NCBI GenBank assembly: GCA_026129465.1
Contig: JAHCIA010000001.1
Coordinates: 319,964 to 383,963 of the forward strand
DNA: 64,000 nucleotides
DNA from: Flavobacteriales bacterium
GTDB taxonomy: Bacteria; Bacteroidota; Bacteroidia; Flavobacteriales_F; PHOS-HE28
Direction of reading: 5' to 3'
Shown here: positions 15,601 through 46,308 of the stretch, in pieces
Layout of the letters: every line of letters begins with the position of its first letter
Numbering within the stretch: position 1 is the first letter of the stretch
Made by a program: the position numbers and the translations under genes
The notes under the pieces: model-generated
Database searches by the model: none
Told to the model about the DNA's origin: nothing
What the model saw: the letters and a program-made list of their open reading frames with translations, nothing else

Positions 15601-16011
15601 TCAGCGACCTCTATACTCGGTGATGATCTCCTGGTCGGAGGGGAGGATGATCTCCGTGTCGTTCACACGGCGCACCCAGTAGAGGTACTTGCCCGTGCCC
15701 TGGCATGCGAAGGCTTCCATGCTCTCGTTGGCGGCCAGCGCCTTCACGGGGAAGGTGCGCCAGGTGCCGCCCTTTTCCTGCATGGCCATCTTCACCTCGA
15801 TCATTTCCCGGCAGGTGTTGCGCATCTCCAGGATGAAGGTGCCGCTGAAATCGCGCTTGTAGCCCTCCTTGTAGTATTCACATTTCTCGCAGGGTGCGCC
15901 CCACTTGCTGCCCACCTTCATCAGGCAGTCCGAATAGCTCTGGTCCTGGGCGTTCACCGCGGCCACCATGGCGAAGGAGAGGATGACGAGTAGGGTAGGT
16001 TTCGCGCTCAT
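15601..16011 (-). CDS. Small exported hypothetical protein, last gene of a TPR operon
   Basis: 136 residues. The ATG at 16011 opens a signal peptide (SAKPTLLVILSFAMVAAVNAQ) and overlaps the TGA of the preceding TPR gene by 4 nt (ATGA), so the two are translationally coupled. The mature part has five Cys (YSDCLMK, PCEKCEYY, RNTCREM, EAFACQG), beta-rich composition and no motif I recognise. The longer frame to 16245 lies inside the TPR gene and is rejected. Confidence 0.7.
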   Translation of the reverse strand: MSAKPTLLVILSFAMVAAVNAQDQSYSDCLMKVGSKWGAPCEKCEYYKEGYKRDFSGTFILEMRNTCREMIEVKMAMQEKGGTWRTFPVKALAANESMEAFACQGTGKYLYWVRRVNDTEIILPSDQEIITEYRGR

Positions 16012-33362: not shown

Positions 33363-33430
33363 GCGGAAGGAACACGGAACGGCAGCGCGTGTTCGTGCGG
33401 GAAGCGTTCGAAGCCCCAACTTCGCGAGCG

Positions 33431-36400
33431 ATGTGGCGGCGTCTGGTCCTTGTTGTTTGGCTGATGGGCACCGGGCCGTGGTCCGTGGCGCGATCTCCCG
33501 TGTTCCGCTCCATCCAGGAGCGCGACGGGCTGTCGAACCATGACGTGCTGGCCTTACATCGTGATGTGACCGGTGCGCTTTGGATCGGTACCGCCCATGG
33601 CCTCGATCGCTATGACGGGGACCGCATCACGAACTTCTCTCCGGATGACGGCCTGCCCTCGCCCACCATCAAGGCGATCGCCAGTGATGCCGCGGGCATG
33701 TTGTGGATGGCCACCCTGGGTGGCGTGACGCGCATGGACCCGCACACCTGGCGCATGGAGAGTTGGCGCGTCAGCAATGGTGCCGATCCGGTGCGGAACA
33801 ACATGTTCATGCATGTGCTCCCGCTGGGGGACCGTGTACTGTGCACCAGCGAAGGGGGCCTGTGGTGGTTCGATCCGCGGGACGCGTCGTGGAGCCGACC
33901 ATCACCCAGGAACGCCGATGGGCTCGTGCCCTTCGGCAGTGTGTTGCGCGCGGACAGTGGCGGAACGGGATGCTGGATCAGCACGCGTGACAGGGGATTG
34001 GTGTACTACGATGTGGCCCGGGAGGTCCTGCACGATCGGAAGCAGAACCCCGGAGCGCATCCTTTGCTGGAGGGGCTGCACATCAGCGCCATGTGCACGG
34101 ATCGCGATGGCAACCTGTGGCTCAGCGAGCATTTGAGCAAGGAGATCATCCACTACCGCGTGGCCAGCCGCCGCTTGGAGCGTTGGAAACATTGGCCCGG
34201 CCATCCGGAGGCGGTCATCCGATCCGGCGCCCGCGTGCTGGCCTGTGATGCCGCCGGCAGGCTCTGGTATAGCGGATGGGACTTTCTGCCGCGCGTGTTC
34301 GATCCCGTGGCGCGCACCCTCATCGATCTGGTGCCCGACCAGGGCGACCCCACCACCATCCCCTTCGGCTTCATACACGAATTCCATGAGGATGAGCGCG
34401 GCCTCATCTGGCTGGCCACACCCAATGGCATCGCCGTGCATGATCCCTCCGCGTTCCAGTACCAGGTGATCGACCCCGGACGCCATTTCGGGAGCTACTT
34501 CGACATGACGATCACCGGCATCGCGACCGATGAGATGGGCGCGATCTGGACATCATCGGAGGCCGGTCTGGTGCGGTACGATCCGGGTACTGGTGGCTAT
34601 GAACATATGCCGTCATTGCCGGGTCCCGATGCCGCCAGCAAGGTCCTCTCCATGTCCAAGGGCGATGGGGTGTTCTGGTTGGGCACGCGCCACGGCCTCT
34701 ACACGTTCGATCCGCGAAGCCGGAGATCGGTGCCGGTGGAACTGCTCAAAGGCCGGGATCCGGCGCGCGTCCCGATCTCCAAGGTGCACGTGGATCGGCA
34801 GGGTGGCATTTGGGTCTTCTCCTGGTCCGAAGGGTTGTTCCATCATGACCCTGCCACCGGCAGCACCGAGCAATGGCCGCACGGCTGGGATCCTCCGCGC
34901 GGATTCAGCTCGGGCATCATGCACAGTATGTTGGAAGCCGCGGATGGCAGCATCTGGTTGGGGCATATCTATGGGGGTATCGTGCGCTACGACCCGGCCA
35001 AGCGGACGTTCGCCGAGGTGCTCCGGACGGGTGGGACCGAAGGAGGTGCCGGCAAAGGACCCATCACCGCTTTGGCGGAGGACGCGCGCGGCAACATCTG
35101 GTACTTCTCCCAGGGCTTCGGGCTGTTCTCCCTGGACCCCGGTTCCGGCGCTGTGCGGCGCTACGGCATGCGGGAAGGGCTGCCCTCGCTGTCCGGTTGG
35201 AACATAGTACCAGACAGTCGCGGAAGACTTTGGCTGGGCACCGGCAAGGGGCTCGCCTGTTTCGATCCGGTGGCCGGCCGCGCCACGCCGATCCGCCTGG
35301 ACCACGGACTGTCCTACCATGACATGCCTCCGGCCCATGCCTGGCTGCCCTCCGGCGAGTTGCTCATGGCCGACGGGTACACCTTGGTGCGTTTCGACCC
35401 CGGGCGCTTCGTGCGGTCCGATCCGCCGCCGGCCCCGGTCGTGCGGTCACTCCTGGTGAACGGAGAACGGGTACCTTTGTCCGGCGAGGACCCCATCCGA
35501 TTGGAGCATGGTCAGGACCGCATCACCATCCGGTTCTCCTCCTTCGATCTGCCGGGGCGCATCACGCGATACGCCACACGGCGCGTGGGTGATACCACCT
35601 GGGTGGAAGGCCCCACTGGGACGTTCTCACTGTCCGGGCTCAATCCCGCAGAGTACGAGTTCAGGTTCCGCACCATGTCCGATACCGGCGTGTGGAGCGA
35701 GGAGAGTGGTTTGCGGTTCATCATCGCGCCGCCCTGGTGGCAGCGGCTCTGGGCGCGTGTGCTCTTCGCCCTGCTGATCGCGGCGTCCATCGTGCTGCTG
35801 TTCCGGCTGCGGCTGAACCTGATCCGTTCGCGTGAGCGCAAGGAGGAATCCGTCGCCCGAACGATGAACGACCTCAAGCTCCGCGCCCTGCGTGCCCAGA
35901 TGAACCCGCACTTCGTGTTCAACTGCATGAACTCGATCGACAAGTACATCCTGATGAACGAGCCGGAGCAGGCCTCGCGCTACCTGAACCGCTTCGCCAA
36001 GCTCGTGCGCCTCATCCTCAACCAGAGCGACAGCGTGAGCGTGCCGTTGGACAAGGAGGTGGAGATGCTCCGCTACTACCTGGAGCTGGAGGCCCTGCGC
36101 TTCGAGGAGCCCTTCACCTTCGAGGTCACCGCCGATCCCCTGCTGATGAACGAGGATCCCGAGCTGCCTGCGATGCTGGTGCAGCCTTACGTGGAGAACG
36201 CCATCTGGCATGGCTTGCAGCACAAGCACGGCCGCGGCCACATCCGGGTGGACTTCCGCAAACTGGGCAACGACCTGGTGGTGACCGTGGAGGACAATGG
36301 TGTGGGCCGCGCCGAGGCCGCGCGAATCAAGGCGCAGCGCAGCACCGTGCACAGCAGCAAGGCCATGCAGGTGAACGCGGACCGCATGAGGCTCATGGAG

Positions 36401-36541
36401 GAGCTGAAGCTCGGTGGCGCCAGCGTGGCGATCGACGATCTCACGGACCGCGAGGGCAAGGCCCTCGGTACACGGGTCACGATCACCTTGCCTTTGGAGG
36501 CGCTGCGCGAAGGGGTGTGGATGGAAGAGCAGGAGGCCTGA
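33431..36541 (+). CDS. Hybrid-propeller LytS-type sensor histidine kinase
   Basis: 1,036 residues. Signal ([19 protein letters not shown]), then a two-component regulator propeller (Reg_prop) with at least ten blades ([54 protein letters not shown]), a Y_Y_Y Ig-like domain (about 705-765), one TM helix (about 773-797, [20 protein letters not shown]), a His-kinase domain with phospho-acceptor [15 protein letters not shown] (about residue 828) and an ATPase with [13 protein letters not shown] (about 916) and [10 protein letters not shown]. It senses an envelope cue. Its likely partner is the LytTR regulator at 40140. Confidence 0.93.
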
Positions 36542-36857: not shown

Positions 36858-37592
36858 TCAAGGGACCTTGGGCAGTTTCACCACCCGGTAGCGCACCGTG
36901 GCGCCGCTTGGTTCGTAGGTGCCATCGGGGCGGATGCCCTTGCGCATTGAGTAGGGCTCGCTCCAAGCGGTGTTGGCTTCCATGGGCCTTGCGGGAAGCA
37001 CCATGTCCAGGGTGATCGATGCCCGGTCGTACGGGATGAAGGTGAGCATGCGGAAGGACGCCACGGTGTTGAGGCGGCCGCGCAGGGGGATCACCCATTG
37101 GCCATCGCGCAGGGCGATGCGTTCACGGTCCACGGTGATGTAGGCGTTGTCGTTGTCTCCCGCGTAGAGCGAGGCTTTGACGTACTCGTGGCGCAGGGCT
37201 TCCTCCGGGTAAAGGCCCTCGGGCACGAAGACCTCGGCTTCGAGTTCCAGCGCATGGCCGTCGATCGTGGGCGCCACGGGCCGCGTGAGCATTTTGAAGC
37301 CGAAGAAGAGGAGCACCAGCGCGTTGGGCAGGAGCTGGGCCAGCGTGAAGGCACGCCAGAACTGGGGCCATGCGTTGGTGCCCAGGATGCCCGTGGCGAT
37401 GAGGCCCCACACGAAGCCCACCGCCGCGGCGAAGGGGCCGAACACGAAGAACACGCCCATGCTGCCGCCACCATCACGATCGTGGATGTTCAGCAGGTGC
37501 ATGAGGCCGAGCCCCACCACTACCGTGATCACGAAGGCGAGCAGGGCGTTGGCGAAGGCGACGGTGAAGGCGATGGACCAGGACATTTTCAT
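36858..37592 (-). CDS. Membrane protein of unknown function, last gene of a four-gene operon
   Basis: 244 residues; ATG 37592 or 37586. Four hydrophobic spans in the first 105 residues (IAFTVAFANALLAFVITVVV, MGVFFVFGPFAAAVGFVWGL, AQLLPNALVLLFFGF) are followed by a soluble beta-rich domain of about 130 residues (HALELEAEVFVPEGLYPEEA, RIALRDGQWVIPLRGRLN, RYRVVKLPKV). No family recognised. It is 20 nt downstream of the 449-residue membrane protein gene. Confidence 0.75.
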   Translation of the reverse strand: MKMSWSIAFTVAFANALLAFVITVVVGLGLMHLLNIHDRDGGGSMGVFFVFGPFAAAVGFVWGLIATGILGTNAWPQFWRAFTLAQLLPNALVLLFFGFKMLTRPVAPTIDGHALELEAEVFVPEGLYPEEALRHEYVKASLYAGDNDNAYITVDRERIALRDGQWVIPLRGRLNTVASFRMLTFIPYDRASITLDMVLPARPMEANTAWSEPYSMRKGIRPDGTYEPSGATVRYRVVKLPKVP

Positions 37593-37612
37593 CTGGGTGT
37601 TGGGTCAGGCGT

Positions 37613-38962
37613 TCATTCCACGGCCCAGCGTAGGGCGGGCGGTACATCGATGAGCACGGGCTTCCACGTCCATCCGGCCTGGGTGACAGCCGCGATGAAA
37701 GGCGCCTTCAGTTCCTGCAGGTTGAAGCGGTAGGTGTAGCTGAGGTCGCCCGTGGGCCGTCCGTCAGGGCCGAACTGCAGCCCGTAGACCTTGCGGTGGT
37801 CCACTTGGAAGAAGGTGATGCCCAAGGCGGTGCTCCACTTCAGGCGGGCACCGTCCATGCCGACGCTGGTATCGAACAGCGACCACTGCTCGGTGACACG
37901 TACGGCCTTGTCCCCGGCATCGAAGCGCAGTACCAAGCGGTGGGTGCGCCGCATGCGGTGCGTGTTCAGCAGGTCGGTCCAGCGGGCGTCGGCATAGTTC
38001 CACGTGATGGCGATACGCCCGTCGTTCAACTCCTCCACGGTCATCGGTACGCTGGCGCCGTTCACGGCGAGGACACGTTCGCGCAAGCCGCTCTCCGCGA
38101 TGGGCGCGGCACCCGGCTCCGCCGGCACCGAGCTCGCCCAGATCGCGCCCTTGAAGAACCAGATGGAGAACAGCAGCACCAGCAGCAGCACCGAGATCAC
38201 TTGGATCCAGACGGGTTGGAAGAGGCGCTTCAAGGGCTGCATGGCGGGGATCAAGGGTGTTCCCGCGCTCGCCATGGCCGCTGGTGAGGCGACGCTTTCA
38301 GGCCTGCGGAGGATGGGGATCGCCGCCACACGGGCTTCGAGCATGGGCTCGGTGAGCGCGGTGACGATGAGCACGGCGTTGCCGCTGCGCAGCAGGTGCA
38401 TGCGGTCTTGGCCCAAACCACGTTTTCCCTTCACTTCGGCACCGCCGCGGTCCAGTTCCACCGCCACCTCATAGAGGCCCAGGTAGGCGAGCAGGCCGTC
38501 GGTGGTCTGTTGCGCATCGCCGAAGACCAGCGCGGTGATGGTCTCGCCGGTGGGCAGCGATGCCGTGTTCGCAGCAAGGAGCCCGGGCATTCGGCTGGCG
38601 AAGAGCGCGCGGCTGTCCTCGAAGGAGGAACCCGGCATGGAGGGCCCGAAGACCTGCTCGGGCTCGGCGACCAGGCCGTCCTTCACGGTGATGCTGAAGG
38701 AGGGGAGGCCCAGCAGTGCGGCGGCATCGGGCTGGATGGCGCCCGCTTCCGCCACACTGCCAGGTTTCACGGCCATGGTCAGGTGCGCCACGAACTGTGG
38801 AAGCACCACCAGCCCGAAGGCGATGGCGAAGAAGATGATGGGCCGGAGCGATGCGCCGCCGCGTGACATGAAGAGGCCGAGCAATGAGCAGACGAGCAGG
38901 CCGCCCAGTACCAGGGCACCCATCACGCCCAGCATGGGGTTCTGTTCGATGATCTTGATCAT
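37613..38962 (-). CDS. Membrane protein of unknown function with a large periplasm-type domain
   Basis: 449 residues. ATG 38962 overlaps the TGA of the upstream gene by 4 nt. TM helices at about residues 10-30, 37-62 and 238-258 (WIQVISVLLLVLLFSIWFF) divide it into two soluble parts; the C-terminal part (RIAITWNYADARWTDLL, GITFFQVDHRKVYGLQFG) is beta-rich. There are no Cys or enzymatic motifs I recognise. It shares an operon with a coiled-coil protein, a 98-residue membrane protein and a 244-residue membrane protein. Confidence 0.78.
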   Translation of the reverse strand: MIKIIEQNPMLGVMGALVLGGLLVCSLLGLFMSRGGASLRPIIFFAIAFGLVVLPQFVAHLTMAVKPGSVAEAGAIQPDAAALLGLPSFSITVKDGLVAEPEQVFGPSMPGSSFEDSRALFASRMPGLLAANTASLPTGETITALVFGDAQQTTDGLLAYLGLYEVAVELDRGGAEVKGKRGLGQDRMHLLRSGNAVLIVTALTEPMLEARVAAIPILRRPESVASPAAMASAGTPLIPAMQPLKRLFQPVWIQVISVLLLVLLFSIWFFKGAIWASSVPAEPGAAPIAESGLRERVLAVNGASVPMTVEELNDGRIAITWNYADARWTDLLNTHRMRRTHRLVLRFDAGDKAVRVTEQWSLFDTSVGMDGARLKWSTALGITFFQVDHRKVYGLQFGPDGRPTGDLSYTYRFNLQELKAPFIAAVTQAGWTWKPVLIDVPPALRWAVE

Positions 38963-39627
38963 GTTCCACCATACAGGGTGATGTGGTCTTCCGCCACGCG
39001 GTACAAGCCACCGCCGGGTACCTGGTCCAGCAGGGCCCGGTGGGCGATCCATCCCAGGGTGGCGTCGCGCTCCTCCACGGGCAGTCCGGTGGTGTTCTCC
39101 CAAGCGGCCCTGTTCGGCACACCGATGATGGCCACCGCGGGTTCCACGGCGAACTCCCACCACAGGCTGAAGGACGTGCGGTCGTCACGGTAGTGCACGG
39201 TGCCGCCACGGCCCTGGCTGGTGTAGCTCAGCGTGGCGTGGTGAGGTGCGGGCAAAGGTTTCCGGTCATCGGCGCGGCGCTGCACCAGCTTCGCGGCATG
39301 CGCCATCAGGTTCGCGTCGGCATCGAGCCAGCGGGCCACTTCATCCTCCCGCTGGCCGGCCGCGAGGTGCTTCATGGCCAGCGACAGGATCGCTTCGTAC
39401 CGTGCATGGCGGGTGAATTGTGCCCTTCGCTCATCGAACCAGGCCTGCGCCAGGCGCTCCCCTTCGCGCTCGGCCTGCTGGCGCAGTTCGCGCAGGGCAT
39501 CACGTTCGGCGATGGTGGCCTGTTGCTCGCGGGCCAGTTCTTCGCGCGCGTTGTCCAGCGTGGCCAATGCGGCCCGCATCGCTTCCGCGAAGACACCTTC
39601 GGGGCCAGTGTGGCGCTCTTCGCTCAT
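38959..39627 (-). CDS. Cytoplasmic coiled-coil protein of unknown function
   Basis: 222 residues from ATG 39627. Residues 10-75 are a predicted coiled coil (AALATLDNAREELAREQQAT, LRELRQQAEREGERLAQAW); the rest is globular (AILSLAMKHLAAGQREDEVA, RWLDADANLMAHAAKLVQ, SLWWEFAVEPAVAIIGVPNR). No signal peptide. The 4-nt stop/start overlap with the next membrane-protein gene indicates coupling. Confidence 0.75.
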   Translation of the reverse strand: MSEERHTGPEGVFAEAMRAALATLDNAREELAREQQATIAERDALRELRQQAEREGERLAQAWFDERRAQFTRHARYEAILSLAMKHLAAGQREDEVARWLDADANLMAHAAKLVQRRADDRKPLPAPHHATLSYTSQGRGGTVHYRDDRTSFSLWWEFAVEPAVAIIGVPNRAAWENTTGLPVEERDATLGWIAHRALLDQVPGGGLYRVAEDHITLYGGT

Positions 39628-39632
39628 GGTGT

Positions 39633-39929
39633 TCAGTTCCAGCGGGCGTGGGTGGCGGCGAAGAACACAAGTGCGAAGATCGCGGCCCAGAAGACAACAA
39701 GGACCACCGTGGCCGAAGTGGTCCGTGCCTGCTCTGACAGCCGCCAGGCCCACAGACCGATCCCGGCGAAGAGGACCATTGCACCGATGGCCAGGCCCCA
39801 TTCCTTCGCGGTGTTGCGCGACCCGGCCACCAGGCCCGCAGCGGTGAACAGTGCGTTCACAAGGCCCATGGCGAGCATGGCCGTGGACAGTCCGTGCAGA
39901 CCTAGCAGAATGAGGAAGAGTGTGCGCAT
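39633..39929 (-). CDS. Small membrane protein, first gene of the unknown operon
   Basis: 98 residues, three hydrophobic spans (RTLFLILLGLHGLSTAMLAM, GLAIGAMVLFAGIGLWAW, ATVVLVVFWAAIFALVFFA). The stop is 5 nt before the next start. A weak -7-like TATGCTTG (39937-39944) ends 7 nt before the ATG. Confidence 0.7.
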   Translation of the reverse strand: MRTLFLILLGLHGLSTAMLAMGLVNALFTAAGLVAGSRNTAKEWGLAIGAMVLFAGIGLWAWRLSEQARTTSATVVLVVFWAAIFALVFFAATHARWN

Positions 39930-40023
39930 CGCGGTGCAAGCATAGAAGGGGGTGTTCCGGCCCGAGCACAGAGCAAGGGGAACGCGGTATCTCGGAAAAC
40001 CTCCACCCAACGGATCACCATGA

Positions 40024-40053
40024 CCACTTGCTGTCAGGATCGCCCATTGGCTG
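40024..40053 (+). promoter_or_regulatory. Candidate LytTR binding site: direct repeats 20 bp apart
   Basis: CCACTTGCTG at 40024-40033 and CCATTGGCTG at 40044-40053 (8 of 10 identical), start-to-start distance 20 bp, 87 bp before the LytTR gene. LytTR proteins bind direct repeats on one helix face, spaced about two turns. Confidence 0.5.
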
Positions 40054-40139
40054 GGACCTGCTGGACGACCTGACGGAAGGTGGACTTCCATGCCCTTGTT
40101 TTGGGGTGCAGATGAACGGAGACAAGAACCAACGGATCC

Positions 40140-40889
40140 ATGCTCAATGCCCTGATCATCGACGACGAGGCCAACGCCCGAGAGAAGCTGGCCTTTCTGC
40201 TGGAGCGCTACTGCGCCGATACGGTGAATGTGATCGGCATCTGCAAGGATGGCGAGGAGGGCGTGGAGGCCATCCGCCAGCACCAGCCCGACCTGCTCTT
40301 CCTGGACGTGGAGATGCCGCGCATGACCGGCTTCGACGTGCTGCGCGAGGCGGGCCGCGGCCGGCACGAGGTGATCTTCACCACGGCCTACGACCACTAC
40401 GCCATCAAGGCCATCAAGTTCGCCGCCATCGACTACCTGCTCAAGCCCATCGACATCGACCAACTGAAGGAGGCCATCACACGCACGCTGGAGAAGCGCG
40501 GCACCGCAGGTTCCGAGCAACGTGTGGAGCAGTTGATGGAGAACACGCGCCCCGGCATGGCGCCTGGCAGCCTCAGCGTACCCGGCAAGGATGGGTTCGT
40601 GATGGTGAAGGTGGACGACATCGTGTGGTGCGAGGCCATCAACTACTACACCGTGCTGCACCTGCTGGGCGGCAAGGAACTGGTGGCCACGCGTACGCTG
40701 AAGGATTTCGAGGAGATGCTCAGCGGCTCGGGCTTCGCGCGCATCCACCATTCGCACATGATCAATGTGAAGCACCTGGAGCGCTACATCAAGGGCGCGG
40801 GCGGCCAGGTGGTGATGGCCGGCGGAAAGACGCTGGACGTGAGCCGCCGCAAGAAGGACGAGCTGATGGCGCGCCTGGGCCGGGGCTGA
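40140..40889 (+). CDS. LytTR-family response regulator
   Basis: 249 residues. The receiver domain (1-122) has the acidic pair in LIIDDEA (Asp8/Asp9), the phospho-acceptor Asp56 in LLFLDVEMP, Thr in FTTAYDHYA and Lys in DYLLKPID. The LytTR DNA-binding domain (about 145-245) shows DIVWCEAINYYTVLHL and FARIHHSHMINVKHLERY. The likely cognate kinase is the LytS-type protein at 33431-36541, 3.6 kb upstream beyond an opposite-strand operon. Direct-repeat pairs of the same 10-mer precede and follow this gene, suggesting autoregulation and control of the next gene. Confidence 0.95.
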   Translation: MLNALIIDDEANAREKLAFLLERYCADTVNVIGICKDGEEGVEAIRQHQPDLLFLDVEMPRMTGFDVLREAGRGRHEVIFTTAYDHYAIKAIKFAAIDYLLKPIDIDQLKEAITRTLEKRGTAGSEQRVEQLMENTRPGMAPGSLSVPGKDGFVMVKVDDIVWCEAINYYTVLHLLGGKELVATRTLKDFEEMLSGSGFARIHHSHMINVKHLERYIKGAGGQVVMAGGKTLDVSRRKKDELMARLGRG

Positions 40890-40904
40890 ACTGGCCCGCC
40901 ACGA

Positions 40905-40934
40905 CCACTTGCTGATGTGCCCTTCCACTTGCTG
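40905..40934 (+). promoter_or_regulatory. Candidate LytTR binding site: perfect 10-bp direct repeats 20 bp apart
   Basis: CCACTTGCTG at 40905-40914 and again at 40925-40934, both identical to the first half-site at 40024. The second copy also sits in a 6-bp hairpin CTTCCA/TGGAAG. The pair ends 33 bp before a CAGTTTCG element (40967-40974) that is 22 nt before the ATG at 40997, a position suited to activation. A run of nine G (40951-40959) lies between. Confidence 0.55.
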
Positions 40935-40996
40935 GAAGCGGCTTTACCACGGGGGGGGGACCGAAGCAGTTTCGCCATCGAAACGAACGGACCCCC

Positions 40997-43150
40997 ATGA
41001 ACCACCAACACACCACCCGTATCCACCGCAACAAACGCGGTACGTTGAAGCATCGCCTGTTGCGCAGTGGCCTGTTGGACCTGCTGCTGTGCATCGCAAT
41101 CGCCATCGTGCTGGTTCTGCTCAGCAGCGGCGCGGCTTTTGGCCAGAACGTGGGCATCAACACCCCCACGCCTCACGACAAGGCCCTGTTGGACATGGCC
41201 AGTTCGGACAAGGGCGTGTTGGTGCCCCGCATGACGGTGGCGCAACGCACGGCCATCTTCCCCGCGCCCGATGCCACCGCCAAGGGCATGCTGGTGTACC
41301 AGACCGACGGGCAGGAGGGCTTCCACTACTATGATGGGGCACAATGGATCTTCCTGGATCCAGCGGGGACTCCGGCTTCTGCTGGCTGGGCCTTGGAAGG
41401 GAATACGGGCACCGATCCCGCCAACGACTTCGTGGGCACCACGGACGCACAGCCGGTGGTGTTCCGCACCGCCAATGCGGAACGCATGCGCGTGGGAGAG
41501 ACGGGCAATGTGGGCATCGGCACCACCACACCGGTCCATGGCCTGCATGTGGTCCGTGCTGTGGAGAACGCCACGCTGGGCCTGCGCAACCTGAACAACA
41601 ATGCCGTCGGTGGCGTGAACTATTATGGTTCGGGCGGTACGCTGGCGGGTGTCACCGGATGGTCCAATGGGGGGTACACCATCGCGCCGGGAAGCCTGCT
41701 GCATGGGACCTTGACGGCCAGCCCCGCCGCGTTCATCACCAGCGGCAATGAGCGCATGCGCATCGCCGCCAACGGCATGGTGGGCATCGGCACCAACAAC
41801 CCCGCTTACAAATTGGACCTGTGGGACGATATCGCAGGACCAAGCATGCGCATACGCAACGTGAACAACGCGGGTTGGTCGGGCATGCACATGGAGAGCG
41901 CGGGCGGCACGGGTCGCGCACACTTCGGTTTCGGCAATGGTGGGGCGCCGGTACTGGCCGCCGTGGGTTATGCCGGCACCACGAGCAACCATCCCTTCGT
42001 GTTCACCACGGTGGATGTGGAGCGCATGCGGATCCAGCCCAATGGTAATGTGGGGGTAGGCACACAGAACCCCACTGCCCGGATGGACATCACCATGAAT
42101 TCCACCATCGCACAGCCGCAATTGCGCCTGTCGGAGGTCGGTGACGACTTTGGGCGCATCGCCTTCAACAATGATCAGACGGCCAAGTTCTGGCAGATCG
42201 CGGGGCTGCCCCATGAGAACGACGACATCATGGCGCTCAATTTCTTCCACAGTTCCGGCGTGAACCTGATGAGCCTGCGCGGCAATGGCAACCTGGGGAT
42301 CGGCACGGTGAACCCGGTGCACGGGCTGCACGTGGTGCGCACCACGGACAACGCCACCCTGGGCCTGCGCAACTTGAACGACAACGCGGTGGGCGGGGTG
42401 AACTACTACGGATCGGGCGGTTCCCTTGGTGGCGTAACGGGCTGGAGCAACAACGGTAACACCATAGCCCCCAACTCCCTGTTGCACGGCACATTCACGA
42501 ACAACCCCCTCACCTTCATCACCAACAGTACGGAGCGCATGCGCATCCTGGCCAATGGCCGCGTGGGTGTGGGTACCGCAACACCCGCTGGACACATGGA
42601 AGTGGCCAGCAACTCCGGCGCTGGAAGTGGCCAGGTGATCATCACAGAGACCGAACTGGACCATGCGCGCCTGGGCATGCGCAACACCACCACGCCCAAG
42701 TTCTGGGAACTCACCGCGCTGGCCCACGCCACCGATGCGACGGCCAACTTCAACGTGTACCACAGTGTCACCGGAAACCTGCTCACCGTGCGCGGCAACG
42801 GCAACGTGGGTGTGGGCACCAACAACCCCACCACCAAGCTGGAGGTGAACGGCTACACCAAGCTGGGCAGCGATGCACCGGCGGTGCGCATGCGGAAGTA
42901 CACCGGCACAACACCGGCAACATCTTCCTCCACCACGTCCATCGTTCACGGATTGGACCCCTCCAAGATCCTGGGGGTTCAGGCCATGCTGGTGGCCACC
43001 AACCTCGTGTATCCCAATGGCAATACGGTGAACGGCTACCAGTTCGACTGCTATGTGGACGGACCCACGATACGACTTTCACTGCCGACGACCGGTTCCA
43101 ACCTGGCCGGTGCGCGTGCGGTCCGCATCCTGGTCACTTACGAGGAGTGA
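40997..43150 (+). CDS. Long repetitive exported protein with tail-fibre-like GNVGIGTxxP repeats
   Basis: 717 residues. A long basic N-terminus then a signal-like helix (LLDLLLCIAIAIVLVLLSSGAAFGQ). Residues 50-640 are made of repeats with GNVGIGTxxPxxxLxV separated by RMRI-type strands, as in phage tail fibres and many Bacteroidota surface fibres. A module of about 95 residues, PVHGLHVVR...LGLRNLNNNAVGGVNYYGSG, occurs twice (about 180-275 and 435-535), an internal duplication. No T9SS domain, no intramolecular chaperone. The candidate LytTR sites lie directly upstream. Surface fibre or adhesin is the best guess. Confidence 0.8.
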   Translation: MNHQHTTRIHRNKRGTLKHRLLRSGLLDLLLCIAIAIVLVLLSSGAAFGQNVGINTPTPHDKALLDMASSDKGVLVPRMTVAQRTAIFPAPDATAKGMLVYQTDGQEGFHYYDGAQWIFLDPAGTPASAGWALEGNTGTDPANDFVGTTDAQPVVFRTANAERMRVGETGNVGIGTTTPVHGLHVVRAVENATLGLRNLNNNAVGGVNYYGSGGTLAGVTGWSNGGYTIAPGSLLHGTLTASPAAFITSGNERMRIAANGMVGIGTNNPAYKLDLWDDIAGPSMRIRNVNNAGWSGMHMESAGGTGRAHFGFGNGGAPVLAAVGYAGTTSNHPFVFTTVDVERMRIQPNGNVGVGTQNPTARMDITMNSTIAQPQLRLSEVGDDFGRIAFNNDQTAKFWQIAGLPHENDDIMALNFFHSSGVNLMSLRGNGNLGIGTVNPVHGLHVVRTTDNATLGLRNLNDNAVGGVNYYGSGGSLGGVTGWSNNGNTIAPNSLLHGTFTNNPLTFITNSTERMRILANGRVGVGTATPAGHMEVASNSGAGSGQVIITETELDHARLGMRNTTTPKFWELTALAHATDATANFNVYHSVTGNLLTVRGNGNVGVGTNNPTTKLEVNGYTKLGSDAPAVRMRKYTGTTPATSSSTTSIVHGLDPSKILGVQAMLVATNLVYPNGNTVNGYQFDCYVDGPTIRLSLPTTGSNLAGARAVRILVTYEE

Positions 43151-43170
43151 TACCCCGAACACATACCACG

Positions 43171-44757
43171 ATGGAGACACTCATCACCCTGCTTCGGATG
43201 CTGCGCCACTTCGGTCCCTGGCTGGCCCTTGTGCTGGGCACAACAGCGCTCCATGCGCAATCCTTGTTCGTGAAGGATGCCCTGGTCACGATCACGCCGG
43301 GCACCGAGGTCCACCTGAGCGGTGACCTCATTACCCAGGCGGCGGCCGAGTTGCGCAACAACGGCACGATCCATCTGGACCGCGACCTGTTCCACAACGG
43401 CACAGGGAATTGTTTCGGCAACAGCCAGGGCACCGTGGTGCTCAACGGCAACTGGCAGACGATCGGAGGATCGGGCATTCCCGTGTTCAACAACCTGGTG
43501 CTGGCGGGCATAGGCGACAAGTCACTGAACAACCATATCGAGGTGGGTGGGGCCGTTGCGGCACCCACGGGCGTGCTTCACCTGAACGATCGCCGCTTGC
43601 ACCTCTCGTCGCGCTCGGCCACAGTGCGCAACCCTTCACCCTTGGCCATACAGCGCACCACGGGGCAGCTCATCAGCGAGACCGATCCCACCATCGGCTA
43701 TGGCACGGTGCGTTGGAACATCGGACAGGCAACGACAGGCAGCGCCTACGTGATGCCCTTCGGCAACGCGGTCACCGGGCACGATCTGCCCTTCATGGTC
43801 ACCGTCACCGATCCCGGTGCGGGGCTGACCGGATGGCTGGCCATGGCCACCTATCCCACGGACCCCATGCCCTGGCCCAACAACCGGCCCCTGCCGGATG
43901 GTCTCACCGAACTGATGAGCATGACCGGCCCGGAGAACGCACCCTTCACCCTGGACCGCTGGTGGGTGATGGAGACCGGTGGCTTCACACAGCCGCCCAT
44001 GGCCGATCTCTCCTTCACCTATCGCGACAGCGAATGGAACAGCGGTACCAACATGATGACCGAAGATGGCCTCATGCTGCAGGACCATTTTGACGGCCAG
44101 TGGCATTTCCCACCTTCGCTGGTCATCCCCACGGACGACCGCCTCATCACCACGGGTGCCGTGTTGCGCAACTCCATCTGGACGGCTTCCTCCATGGGTT
44201 CGCCCTTGCCGGTAACACTATTGCGCTTCGAGGGCGAGCGCCGCGACAGACGGACGGTGCACCTGGATTGGAGCACCGCTTCGGAGCAGTTCTGCGATGG
44301 CTTCGAGGTGTGGCGCATGATCGAGGGCGAGGAGGACTTCACGAAACTTGGCTGGGTGGACGCCGTGGGCATCAGTACGTCACCCAGGCATTACACTTGG
44401 ATCGATGACAACCCCACTGGCCACGTGAGCTACTACATGCTGAAGCAGTTGGATCTCGACGGCGGGCAACAGCCCAGCCCCGTGGTGGCCGTGCAGGGCA
44501 TGGGCCTCCCCGGCGGATTCCTGCTCTATCCGAACCCCGCGACCGATGCGGTACTGGTGGATCTGCCCTTCGCGGTGGAAGGCGCGCTGCACGTGTTCGA
44601 TGGCAGCGGTCGAAGTGTCATCACACAATTGGTCACTGGCGTATCCAGCGTGGAGCGCATAAATGTTTCCCACCTGGCCCCTGGCACCTACATGCTACGT
44701 TTTCAACCCGGCGATGGAAGCATGGATAGCTTCGCTCGGCTGGTGGTCTCGCGTTGA
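43171..44757 (+). CDS. Secreted protein with T9SS type A sorting domain
   Basis: 528 residues from ATG 43171; a GTG at 43147 overlaps the previous stop but is less likely. Signal peptide WLALVLGTTALHAQ, a beta-helix-like stretch (GDLITQAAAELRNNGTIHLD, GNWQTIGGSGIPVFNNLVLA), an unassigned middle and a T9SS C-terminal domain (FLLYPNPATDAVLVDLPFA, HLAPGTYMLRFQPGD). The 20-nt gap to the repeat protein gene suggests a two-gene operon, with the M61-like peptidase gene 18 nt further on. Confidence 0.82.
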   Translation: METLITLLRMLRHFGPWLALVLGTTALHAQSLFVKDALVTITPGTEVHLSGDLITQAAAELRNNGTIHLDRDLFHNGTGNCFGNSQGTVVLNGNWQTIGGSGIPVFNNLVLAGIGDKSLNNHIEVGGAVAAPTGVLHLNDRRLHLSSRSATVRNPSPLAIQRTTGQLISETDPTIGYGTVRWNIGQATTGSAYVMPFGNAVTGHDLPFMVTVTDPGAGLTGWLAMATYPTDPMPWPNNRPLPDGLTELMSMTGPENAPFTLDRWWVMETGGFTQPPMADLSFTYRDSEWNSGTNMMTEDGLMLQDHFDGQWHFPPSLVIPTDDRLITTGAVLRNSIWTASSMGSPLPVTLLRFEGERRDRRTVHLDWSTASEQFCDGFEVWRMIEGEEDFTKLGWVDAVGISTSPRHYTWIDDNPTGHVSYYMLKQLDLDGGQQPSPVVAVQGMGLPGGFLLYPNPATDAVLVDLPFAVEGALHVFDGSGRSVITQLVTGVSSVERINVSHLAPGTYMLRFQPGDGSMDSFARLVVSR

Positions 44758-44775
44758 ACGATACATCACAAGAAG

Positions 44776-46308
44776 ATGAAAAGCCTCCTCCACACCCTCA
44801 CGGCATCCCTGCTCTTGTCCGTGTCGCAGGCCCAGGATCCCATCATCTACACGGTGGACCTCACGGACCAGCGCAACGACCAGCTCAGCATCCGGGTGGA
44901 CCTTCCCGCCCTCGACCGGGAGGTGGTGACCTTCGCATTCCCCCGCATGGTGCCCGGCATCTACGGCGCCATGGAACATGGCCGTCTGGTGCATGCGGTG
45001 TCCGCTTTCGATGAGGAGGGCTATCCCATGGCCGTGCGCAAGGTGGATGTGAACACCTATGTCATCGAAGAAGGACGGGCATTGCGTACGCTCACCTATG
45101 CGGTGGACGACGGCTGGGAGGAATTCGCCCCCCTGTACCAGTATGGCAGCTACCGCAGCAGCGAGGGCACCGTGAAGCGCGACGCGCAGGTGATCAACCA
45201 CAATGCCCTGTTCGGCTATGTGGTGGGAGAGGAGCGGCGGCCGGTCGAGGTCCGCATGACCCACGCACCGACCCACTTTCCGGCCACAGGGCTCACCAGC
45301 ACCGCCAAGGCTCCGGGTTCAACGGTCCTCACCGCGCGCGACTACCGGCACTTGGTGGACAACCCCATGCTGATCGCCGATCCGGATACCGTGCATCTGC
45401 TCATCGGGAACACCAAGGTGCTCGTGGCCTGCCACAGCACCACGGGGCAGCCCATCGCGCGCATGATATCCGAGCAGGCCAAGCCGTTGCTGCGCGACCA
45501 GTTCGCCTACCTCCGTGCCCTGCCCCTGGAGCGTTACACCCTGCTCATCTACCACCATCCCAACAGGGAGGAGGGCAACTACCAGGCGGATGGCCTTGAA
45601 CACGCGTCCAGCACGCTCATCCTGCTCTGCCTGCCCTTGGAAGCCGAAATGCTCGGTGGTGTGGTCAGTGATATCATCAGCCACGAGGTCTTCCACACCT
45701 TGCTGCCGATCCACCTGCACGGCGAGGAGATCGCGCACTACGACTGGTCCGATCCCCAGGTGGGTTCGCACCTCTGGCTCTACGAGGGCATGACCGAATA
45801 CTTCGCCATGCACATGCCGGTGAAGCAGGGGAGGGCCACGGTGCAGGAATTCCTGGCCACACTGGAGGAGAAGACGAAGAAGATGAGCGGGTTCCCCGAC
45901 GATGAGGCGCTCACCCTTCTGAGCCGTGATGCCGTGACCAGGCAGGATGCCTACCCGAATTTCTACCAGAAAGGCGCCCTGTTCTGCATGCTGCTCGACA
46001 TAGAACTGCGCGCGCTGAGCAAAGGCCGGTATGGCGCGGTGGACCTCTGCACCGACATGGCGCGCGTCTATGGGCCGGACAAGCCTTTCAAGGATGATGC
46101 GCTCTTCGCGGAGCTGGCGCGCGTGAGCGGCCTCCCCTCCATCGAAGGCTTCCTGCGAGACCACTTGGATCGTCCGGTGAAGCTCGATGTGGCGAAGCAA
46201 CTGGCCCGTGCTGGTATCGTCCGGGATGCCACGAATGGAGGATACCGGTCGGATCCCAAAGCCACCGGCGAGCAGCAAAAGCTGCGCAAGGCCTGGTTGG
46301 GACGATAG
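44776..46308 (+). CDS. M61-like (glycyl aminopeptidase) metallopeptidase
   Basis: 510 residues. Signal peptide KSLLHTLTASLLLSVSQAQ; an N-terminal beta domain (YTVDLTDQRNDQLSIRVDLP) as in M61; the zinc site HEVFH (His302 and His306) and the third ligand/catalytic Glu in LWLYEGMTEYF (about residue 337), all as in M61/M1 gluzincins. C-terminal helical part and no PDZ domain recognised, unlike the longer family members. Periplasmic or secreted peptide hydrolysis is likely. It lies 18 nt after the T9SS protein gene. Confidence 0.87.
   Translation: MKSLLHTLTASLLLSVSQAQDPIIYTVDLTDQRNDQLSIRVDLPALDREVVTFAFPRMVPGIYGAMEHGRLVHAVSAFDEEGYPMAVRKVDVNTYVIEEGRALRTLTYAVDDGWEEFAPLYQYGSYRSSEGTVKRDAQVINHNALFGYVVGEERRPVEVRMTHAPTHFPATGLTSTAKAPGSTVLTARDYRHLVDNPMLIADPDTVHLLIGNTKVLVACHSTTGQPIARMISEQAKPLLRDQFAYLRALPLERYTLLIYHHPNREEGNYQADGLEHASSTLILLCLPLEAEMLGGVVSDIISHEVFHTLLPIHLHGEEIAHYDWSDPQVGSHLWLYEGMTEYFAMHMPVKQGRATVQEFLATLEEKTKKMSGFPDDEALTLLSRDAVTRQDAYPNFYQKGALFCMLLDIELRALSKGRYGAVDLCTDMARVYGPDKPFKDDALFAELARVSGLPSIEGFLRDHLDRPVKLDVAKQLARAGIVRDATNGGYRSDPKATGEQQKLRKAWLGR

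Follow-up and report, generated by a model that had tools for sequence, protein, structure and literature searches.

In the 64,000-nt stretch of Flavobacteriales DNA analysed here (the window), a gene for a LytTR response regulator lies between two pairs of short direct repeats, pair A upstream and pair B downstream, which raises the question of whether these repeats are binding sites of that regulator and which genes they would control. The repeats are placed as an earlier note on this DNA had described: CCACTTGCTG is present as exact copies at 40024, 40905 and 40925 and, with two mismatches, as CCATTGGCTG at 40044, and both pairs have a start-to-start spacing of 20 bp on either side of the regulator gene (40140-40889). 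An 11-mer is the best description of the repeats in both pairs (Table 1). A scan of the window revealed an additional lone exact copy of CCACTTGCTG at 15901 that is absent from the earlier note. A lone 10-mer carries little meaning, since the window holds 122 copies within two mismatches (shuffle mean of 85.5).

The spaced pair is far rarer. A search for two 10-mers separated by 10 nt, with up to three mismatches, gave four matches in the 3.88-Mb genome and none with a reversed-pattern control: pair B (no mismatches), pair A (two) and two further sites (three each). The genome-wide search proposed in the earlier note thus returns only A and B within two mismatches, where we estimate a chance expectation of ~0.01 sites per genome, assuming equal base composition. 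The two three-mismatch sites were set aside; neither has a -7-like octamer in register, and both lie inside long open frames that are probably coding. An Rfam search for structured RNA returned no match, and a scan for terminators detected none.

Table 1. Features of the locus and half-sites of the related systems.
Feature	Position	Strand	Remarks
Propeller (Reg_prop) histidine kinase	33389-36541	+	orthologue of the kinase directly preceding the regulator in relatives
Three or four genes separating kinase from regulator	36858-39945	-	this genome only
Pair A, half-site 1, ACCACTTGCTG	40023-40033	+	11-mer
Pair A, half-site 2, CCCATTGGCTG	40043-40053	+	weaker, two mismatches in the 10-mer
Possible -7 for pair A, TTGTTTTG	40096-40103	+	candidate; no good -33
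LytTR response regulator	40140-40889	+	249 aa; receiver and LytTR domains; putative binder of A and B
Pair B, half-site 1, ACCACTTGCTG	40904-40914	+	11-mer
Pair B, half-site 2, TCCACTTGCTG	40924-40934	+	starts 20 bp from start of half-site 1
-33-like TTTA	40943-40946	+	8 bp past half-site 2; TTTC/TTGG/TGTG there in five relatives
G9 tract	40951-40959	+	within the -33/-7 spacer
-7-like CAGTTTCG	40967-40974	+	same octamer at own-genome LytTR locus 786405
Target 1, fibre-like protein	40997-43150	+	717 aa; signal/TM start; GNVGIGT-type repeats
T9SS-sorted protein (Por_Secre_tail)	43171-44757	+	close behind the 40997 gene
G019 half-sites, GCAGTTCACTG/GCCGTTCACTG			20-bp repeat at target promoter
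G011 half-sites, GCCGTTCGCAG/GCCATTCACAG			20-bp repeat at target promoter
Own-genome paralogue half-sites, GCCATTCGCAG/ACCATTCACAG	2718868		20-bp repeat at target promoter
G009 half-sites, GCCAGTTATCG twice			20-bp repeat at target promoter
G021 half-sites, ACCAGTTGTCG/GCCAGATATCG			20-bp repeat at target promoter

The protein encoded between the pairs is a LytTR-type response regulator by its profile scores (Response_reg, 77.2 bits; LytTR, 61.5 bits; both above cut-off). Its best full-length NCBIfam profile is that of the BtsR/YehT family, but it is no member of that family, its score of 135.3 bits falling far below the cut-off of 246 bits for the BtsR equivalog. A sequence search of the PDB gave receiver-domain matches only, among the matches listed. 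The propeller kinase is of the LytS type, with PF06580 (His_kinase) in its product, though it lies ~3.6 kb from the regulator gene, and it shares 45% identity with the corresponding kinase of the congener G019. The intervening genes seem to result from an insertion or rearrangement by which a kinase-regulator operon was divided. Downstream of pair B, the product of the 40997 gene matches PHROG tail-fibre profiles and gave no match in a Pfam search. The T9SS-sorted gene probably comes second in the target operon. A gene for an M61-family glycyl aminopeptidase (44776-46308) begins 19 bp past it and may be the third gene on the target transcript. Clusters of adjacent fibre-like (GNVGI) genes are also found across the genus (G000:C1:1304960-1311948, G041:C23, G006:C61 and G030:C86), most of them with no LytTR-type repeat upstream.

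The -7-like element that had been claimed downstream of pair B is present. From half-site 2, the register of this promoter reads 8 bp, TTTA, 20 bp and CAGTTTCG, which is a weak -7. When the half-sites are written as 9-mers, ACCACTTGC and TCCACTTGC are separated by 11 bp, consistent with the published definition of two direct repeats of 9-11 nt that lie 11-13 bp apart (PMC4847170, PMC6193735), and the pair ends 10 bp upstream of TTTA. The same 10-bp distance to a -33-like box is present in the five relatives described below. A scan for sigma-70-type promoters, which does not cover those of Bacteroidota, detected none. At own-genome locus 786405, where an array of three half-sites lies behind a LytTR gene, CAGTTTCG sits 31 bp past the third. 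The spacer between the -33 and -7 boxes is 20 bp in the window, one more than the 19 bp of the five relatives, and the extra base coincides with the G9 tract, the only one in the window; this tract is perhaps phase-variable or a sequencing error.

Comparison with related systems reveals the same arrangement built from different letters. Regulators from four congeners (G019, 72-73% identity to that of the window; G021, 67%; G009, 63%; G011, 60%) and an own-genome paralogue at 2718868 (62%) were compared, and every one of their target promoters contains a direct repeat at exactly 20 bp. The paralogue, G019, G011 and G009 have this repeat in the interval from regulator to target. G021 has its target operon on the upstream side of the kinase and regulator genes, and there the repeat accompanies the target; it is thus an element of the target promoter and does not belong to the regulator gene's 3' end. 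In all five relatives, the order downstream of half-site 2 is 8 bp, a T/G-rich box (TTTC, TTGG or TGTG), a 19-bp spacer and an octamer resembling a -7 element (GACTTTTG, GACCTTTG or GACTTTCG, that is, GACTTTTG or one mismatch from it) that is close to TAnnTTTG. Summed over six promoters, a spacing of 20 bp yields 59 matched positions versus 37-46 for the other spacings from 12 to 40, a score reached by none of 2000 shuffles. When 237 kb of genus DNA were searched on both strands for the repeat with a -7 at the same distance, the matches were these promoters only.

The letters of the half-sites diverge strongly among orthologues. No pair with fewer than two mismatches was found in 44 congeners, where weak matches with two or three mismatches are about as frequent as in the reversed control, and the exact 10-mer letters of the CCACTTGCTG pair are specific to this genome. 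The absence of the repeat from relatives was what the earlier note had named as evidence against a regulatory site, and it holds for the CCACTTGCTG pair itself (up to one mismatch, 44 congeners), but a diverged 20-bp repeat is in place in each orthologous system. A reading of the exact-motif search as lack of conservation was overturned by this comparison of positions. The half-sites group as the regulators do: the window with G019, the paralogue with G011 (68% regulator identity) and G009 with G021 (80%). In AgrA, residues R198, N201 and S202 in the motif FhRhHRS contact DNA (PMC4227749). The regulators compared here differ in the stretch after FhRhHRS, a possible specificity region for which the comparison is suggestive only; within the stretch HMIN-HL, the Asn is replaced by Ser or Gly in G009 and G021.

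Similar arrangements are observed at other LytTR loci. In the own genome, the pattern CCRYTYRCWG-N10-CCRYTYRCWG has exactly two matches without mismatches, pair B and the paralogue, and two of its two-mismatch matches fall at a third LytTR locus, 2515387, whose regulator is 36% identical. Of the pairs at this locus (20 bp), one is directly past the regulator and before the next gene, and the other precedes another fibre-like gene. Overall, 5 of 14 own-genome LytTR genes have a 3'-flank repeat of 20-21 bp with at least 9 of 11 positions matching, locus 2515387 being additional. Across Bacteroidota, a half-site position-weight matrix close to TACCATTTAYTC was applied to 80 LytTR loci, of which six had been used to train it. 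Pairs of 20-22 bp were detected directly past the gene in 29 of the 80 flanks, compared with 3 of 240 control windows; many of the loci are related, so these counts are not independent. Matches to the -7 consensus (TAnnTTTG, at least 5 of 6 letters) peak at exactly 31 bp past half-site 2, in 11 of 23 non-identical sites. The downstream genes at some of the 80 loci encode T9SS-sorted proteins.

Some LytTR arrays consist of three tandem half-sites at 20-22 bp (L148, L158, L133, L178 and L216, the last being own-genome 786405), and in these the -7 lies ~31 bp past the last half-site. A conserved small ORF of ~56 aa (MATxLLxFNNLNSKAMNRKTSIRHGHNYHEEGIGTVTILLAIATVAIIFYSIYxAF), with what looks like a single membrane segment, is found ~170-400 bp downstream of the LytTR gene at L119, L122-L124, L126, L128-L130, L133, L137, L140, L142, L144, L153 and L154 (e.g., L129:7033-7203). 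Most of these loci have direct repeats of 20 bp and a TAATATTG box upstream of the ORF. An NCBIfam search with this ORF gave no match, and it could encode a peptide under the control of the kinase-LytTR pair.

For pair B, the proposal that a LytTR direct-repeat site spanning two helical turns controls the 40997 gene is strongly supported, since four congeners and two other own-genome systems keep a repeat in the same position, with the same spacing and at the same distance from the promoter. The repeat, its spacing and its place relative to the promoter-like boxes recur beside an orthologous regulator and target. Pair B very probably serves the neighbouring response regulator as an activator site, and the complete reading, in which it is the predicted site of the 40140-40889 regulator and drives the 40997 promoter, is one that we hold with high confidence on comparative grounds. 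In this mechanism, the propeller kinase would phosphorylate the regulator, which as a LytTR dimer would bind the two head-to-tail half-sites on one face of the DNA. Positioned directly upstream of the -33 box, the bound regulator would recruit RNA polymerase to a promoter of the Bacteroidota type (-33 TTTA, -7 CAGTTTCG), and this promoter would drive the fibre-like gene together with the T9SS-sorted gene behind it in a presumed operon. The mode would be class-II-like activation rather than repression.

Two other explanations of the repeats are far less probable. The genome encodes at least 14 LytTR domain proteins able to cross-bind, and the repeats could be sites of another regulator that controls the neighbourhood; however, a change of half-site type goes along with a change in the neighbouring regulator's clade, pairs of such geometry are enriched directly past LytTR genes across Bacteroidota, and three separate own-genome LytTR systems each have their own half-site version, so that we regard this explanation as improbable. 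Even less credible, to the point of being nearly dismissed, is a chance repeat or the remnant of a mobile or duplicated element with no regulatory role. The 10-mer alone is common, as noted above, and one of the two pairs could have arisen by copying from the other, but the spaced pair is unique in the genome, and the 20-bp geometry and promoter boxes are conserved in other species despite differing letters, a comparative result that contradicts chance.

The function of pair A is more evenly balanced. The pair probably binds the 40140-40889 regulator, and we see an even chance that it autoregulates this gene, now split from its kinase. The autoregulation suggested in the earlier note is therefore possible, but pair A has neither a -33 nor a -7 box at +8/+31, and so does not lie ~10 bp upstream of a -33 box, and the regulator genes of relatives share an operon with the kinase gene that precedes them and have no such upstream pair. 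The region upstream of the window kinase gene likewise yielded no 20-bp pair. These observations, together with the two mismatches in half-site 2, favour a reading, given a little under even weight, in which pair B alone is the LytTR site and pair A, a decoy or a copy without function, has no part in autoregulation. Against it, the match between A and B is far beyond chance genome-wide, the independent Bacteroidota half-site matrix scores pair A (10.8) above pair B (8.5), and TTGTTTTG is found 42 bp past half-site 2 of pair A, 11 bp, or one helical turn, beyond the canonical position.

The earlier description of a new site was overstated, as the class, spacing and position have already been described for LytTR regulators (PMC4847170, PMC6193735). 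Known sites, such as those of YpdB in E. coli and AgrA in S. aureus, consist of two repeats of 9-11 nt with 11-13 bp between them and no common consensus (PMC4847170), and a repeat pair of this geometry lies beside the promoter, where a LytTR protein binds it; the AgrA repeats are directly upstream of P2/P3 (PMC4227749). The present site differs from the YpdB and AgrA type in its half-site letters, Bacteroidota -33/-7 promoter, propeller sensor kinase and fibre-like/T9SS surface target. Also similar are the sites of the LytTR regulatory system (LRS), 9-mers with 11-13 bp between them that are mostly 10 bp upstream of the -35 box, with examples from Bacteroides and Treponema (PMC6193735). Pair B fits this geometry to the base (9-mers, 11 bp, 10 bp), and the same layout with other letters recurs beside related regulators; both argue for a known class of control element. 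The first seven letters of the Treponema bryantii site (ACCACTTAT-11-GCCACTTAT) are near-identical to those of pair B, and TGTA-19-TATCTTTG follows the repeats of the Bacteroides thetaiotaomicron site (PMC6193735). In contrast, the LRS regulator has no receiver domain, is paired with a membrane inhibitor and is autoregulating, whereas the regulator here contains a receiver domain and is partnered by a histidine kinase, which places it outside LRS, and the conserved site precedes the target gene. Apart from two LRS-like examples in Bacteroides (PMC6193735), a search of the open-access literature gave no LytTR site of a Bacteroidota response regulator. What is new here is the target and the phylum-level pattern, neither of which is described in the literature searched.

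A more speculative extension, which we consider doubtful, joins the G9 tract as a slippage-prone switch to a pattern in which Bacteroidota kinase-LytTR loci have their own site beside the regulator gene. If true, nine G residues would give the weak 20-bp spacer and eight the 19-bp spacer of all five relatives, and the surface-fibre operon would therefore be both LytTR-controlled and phase-variable. A site of its own beside each regulator would also make the LytTR recognition code readable by comparative genomics. Few LytTR sites have been mapped in Bacteroidota, and they share no consensus. At the present locus, comparison by itself suffices to read the site type, the target and the precise register of the promoter, and the half-site tracks the regulator clade. 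This opens the numerous propeller-kinase/LytTR pairs found in the phylum to direct testing and links them to the surface proteins that are probably under their control.
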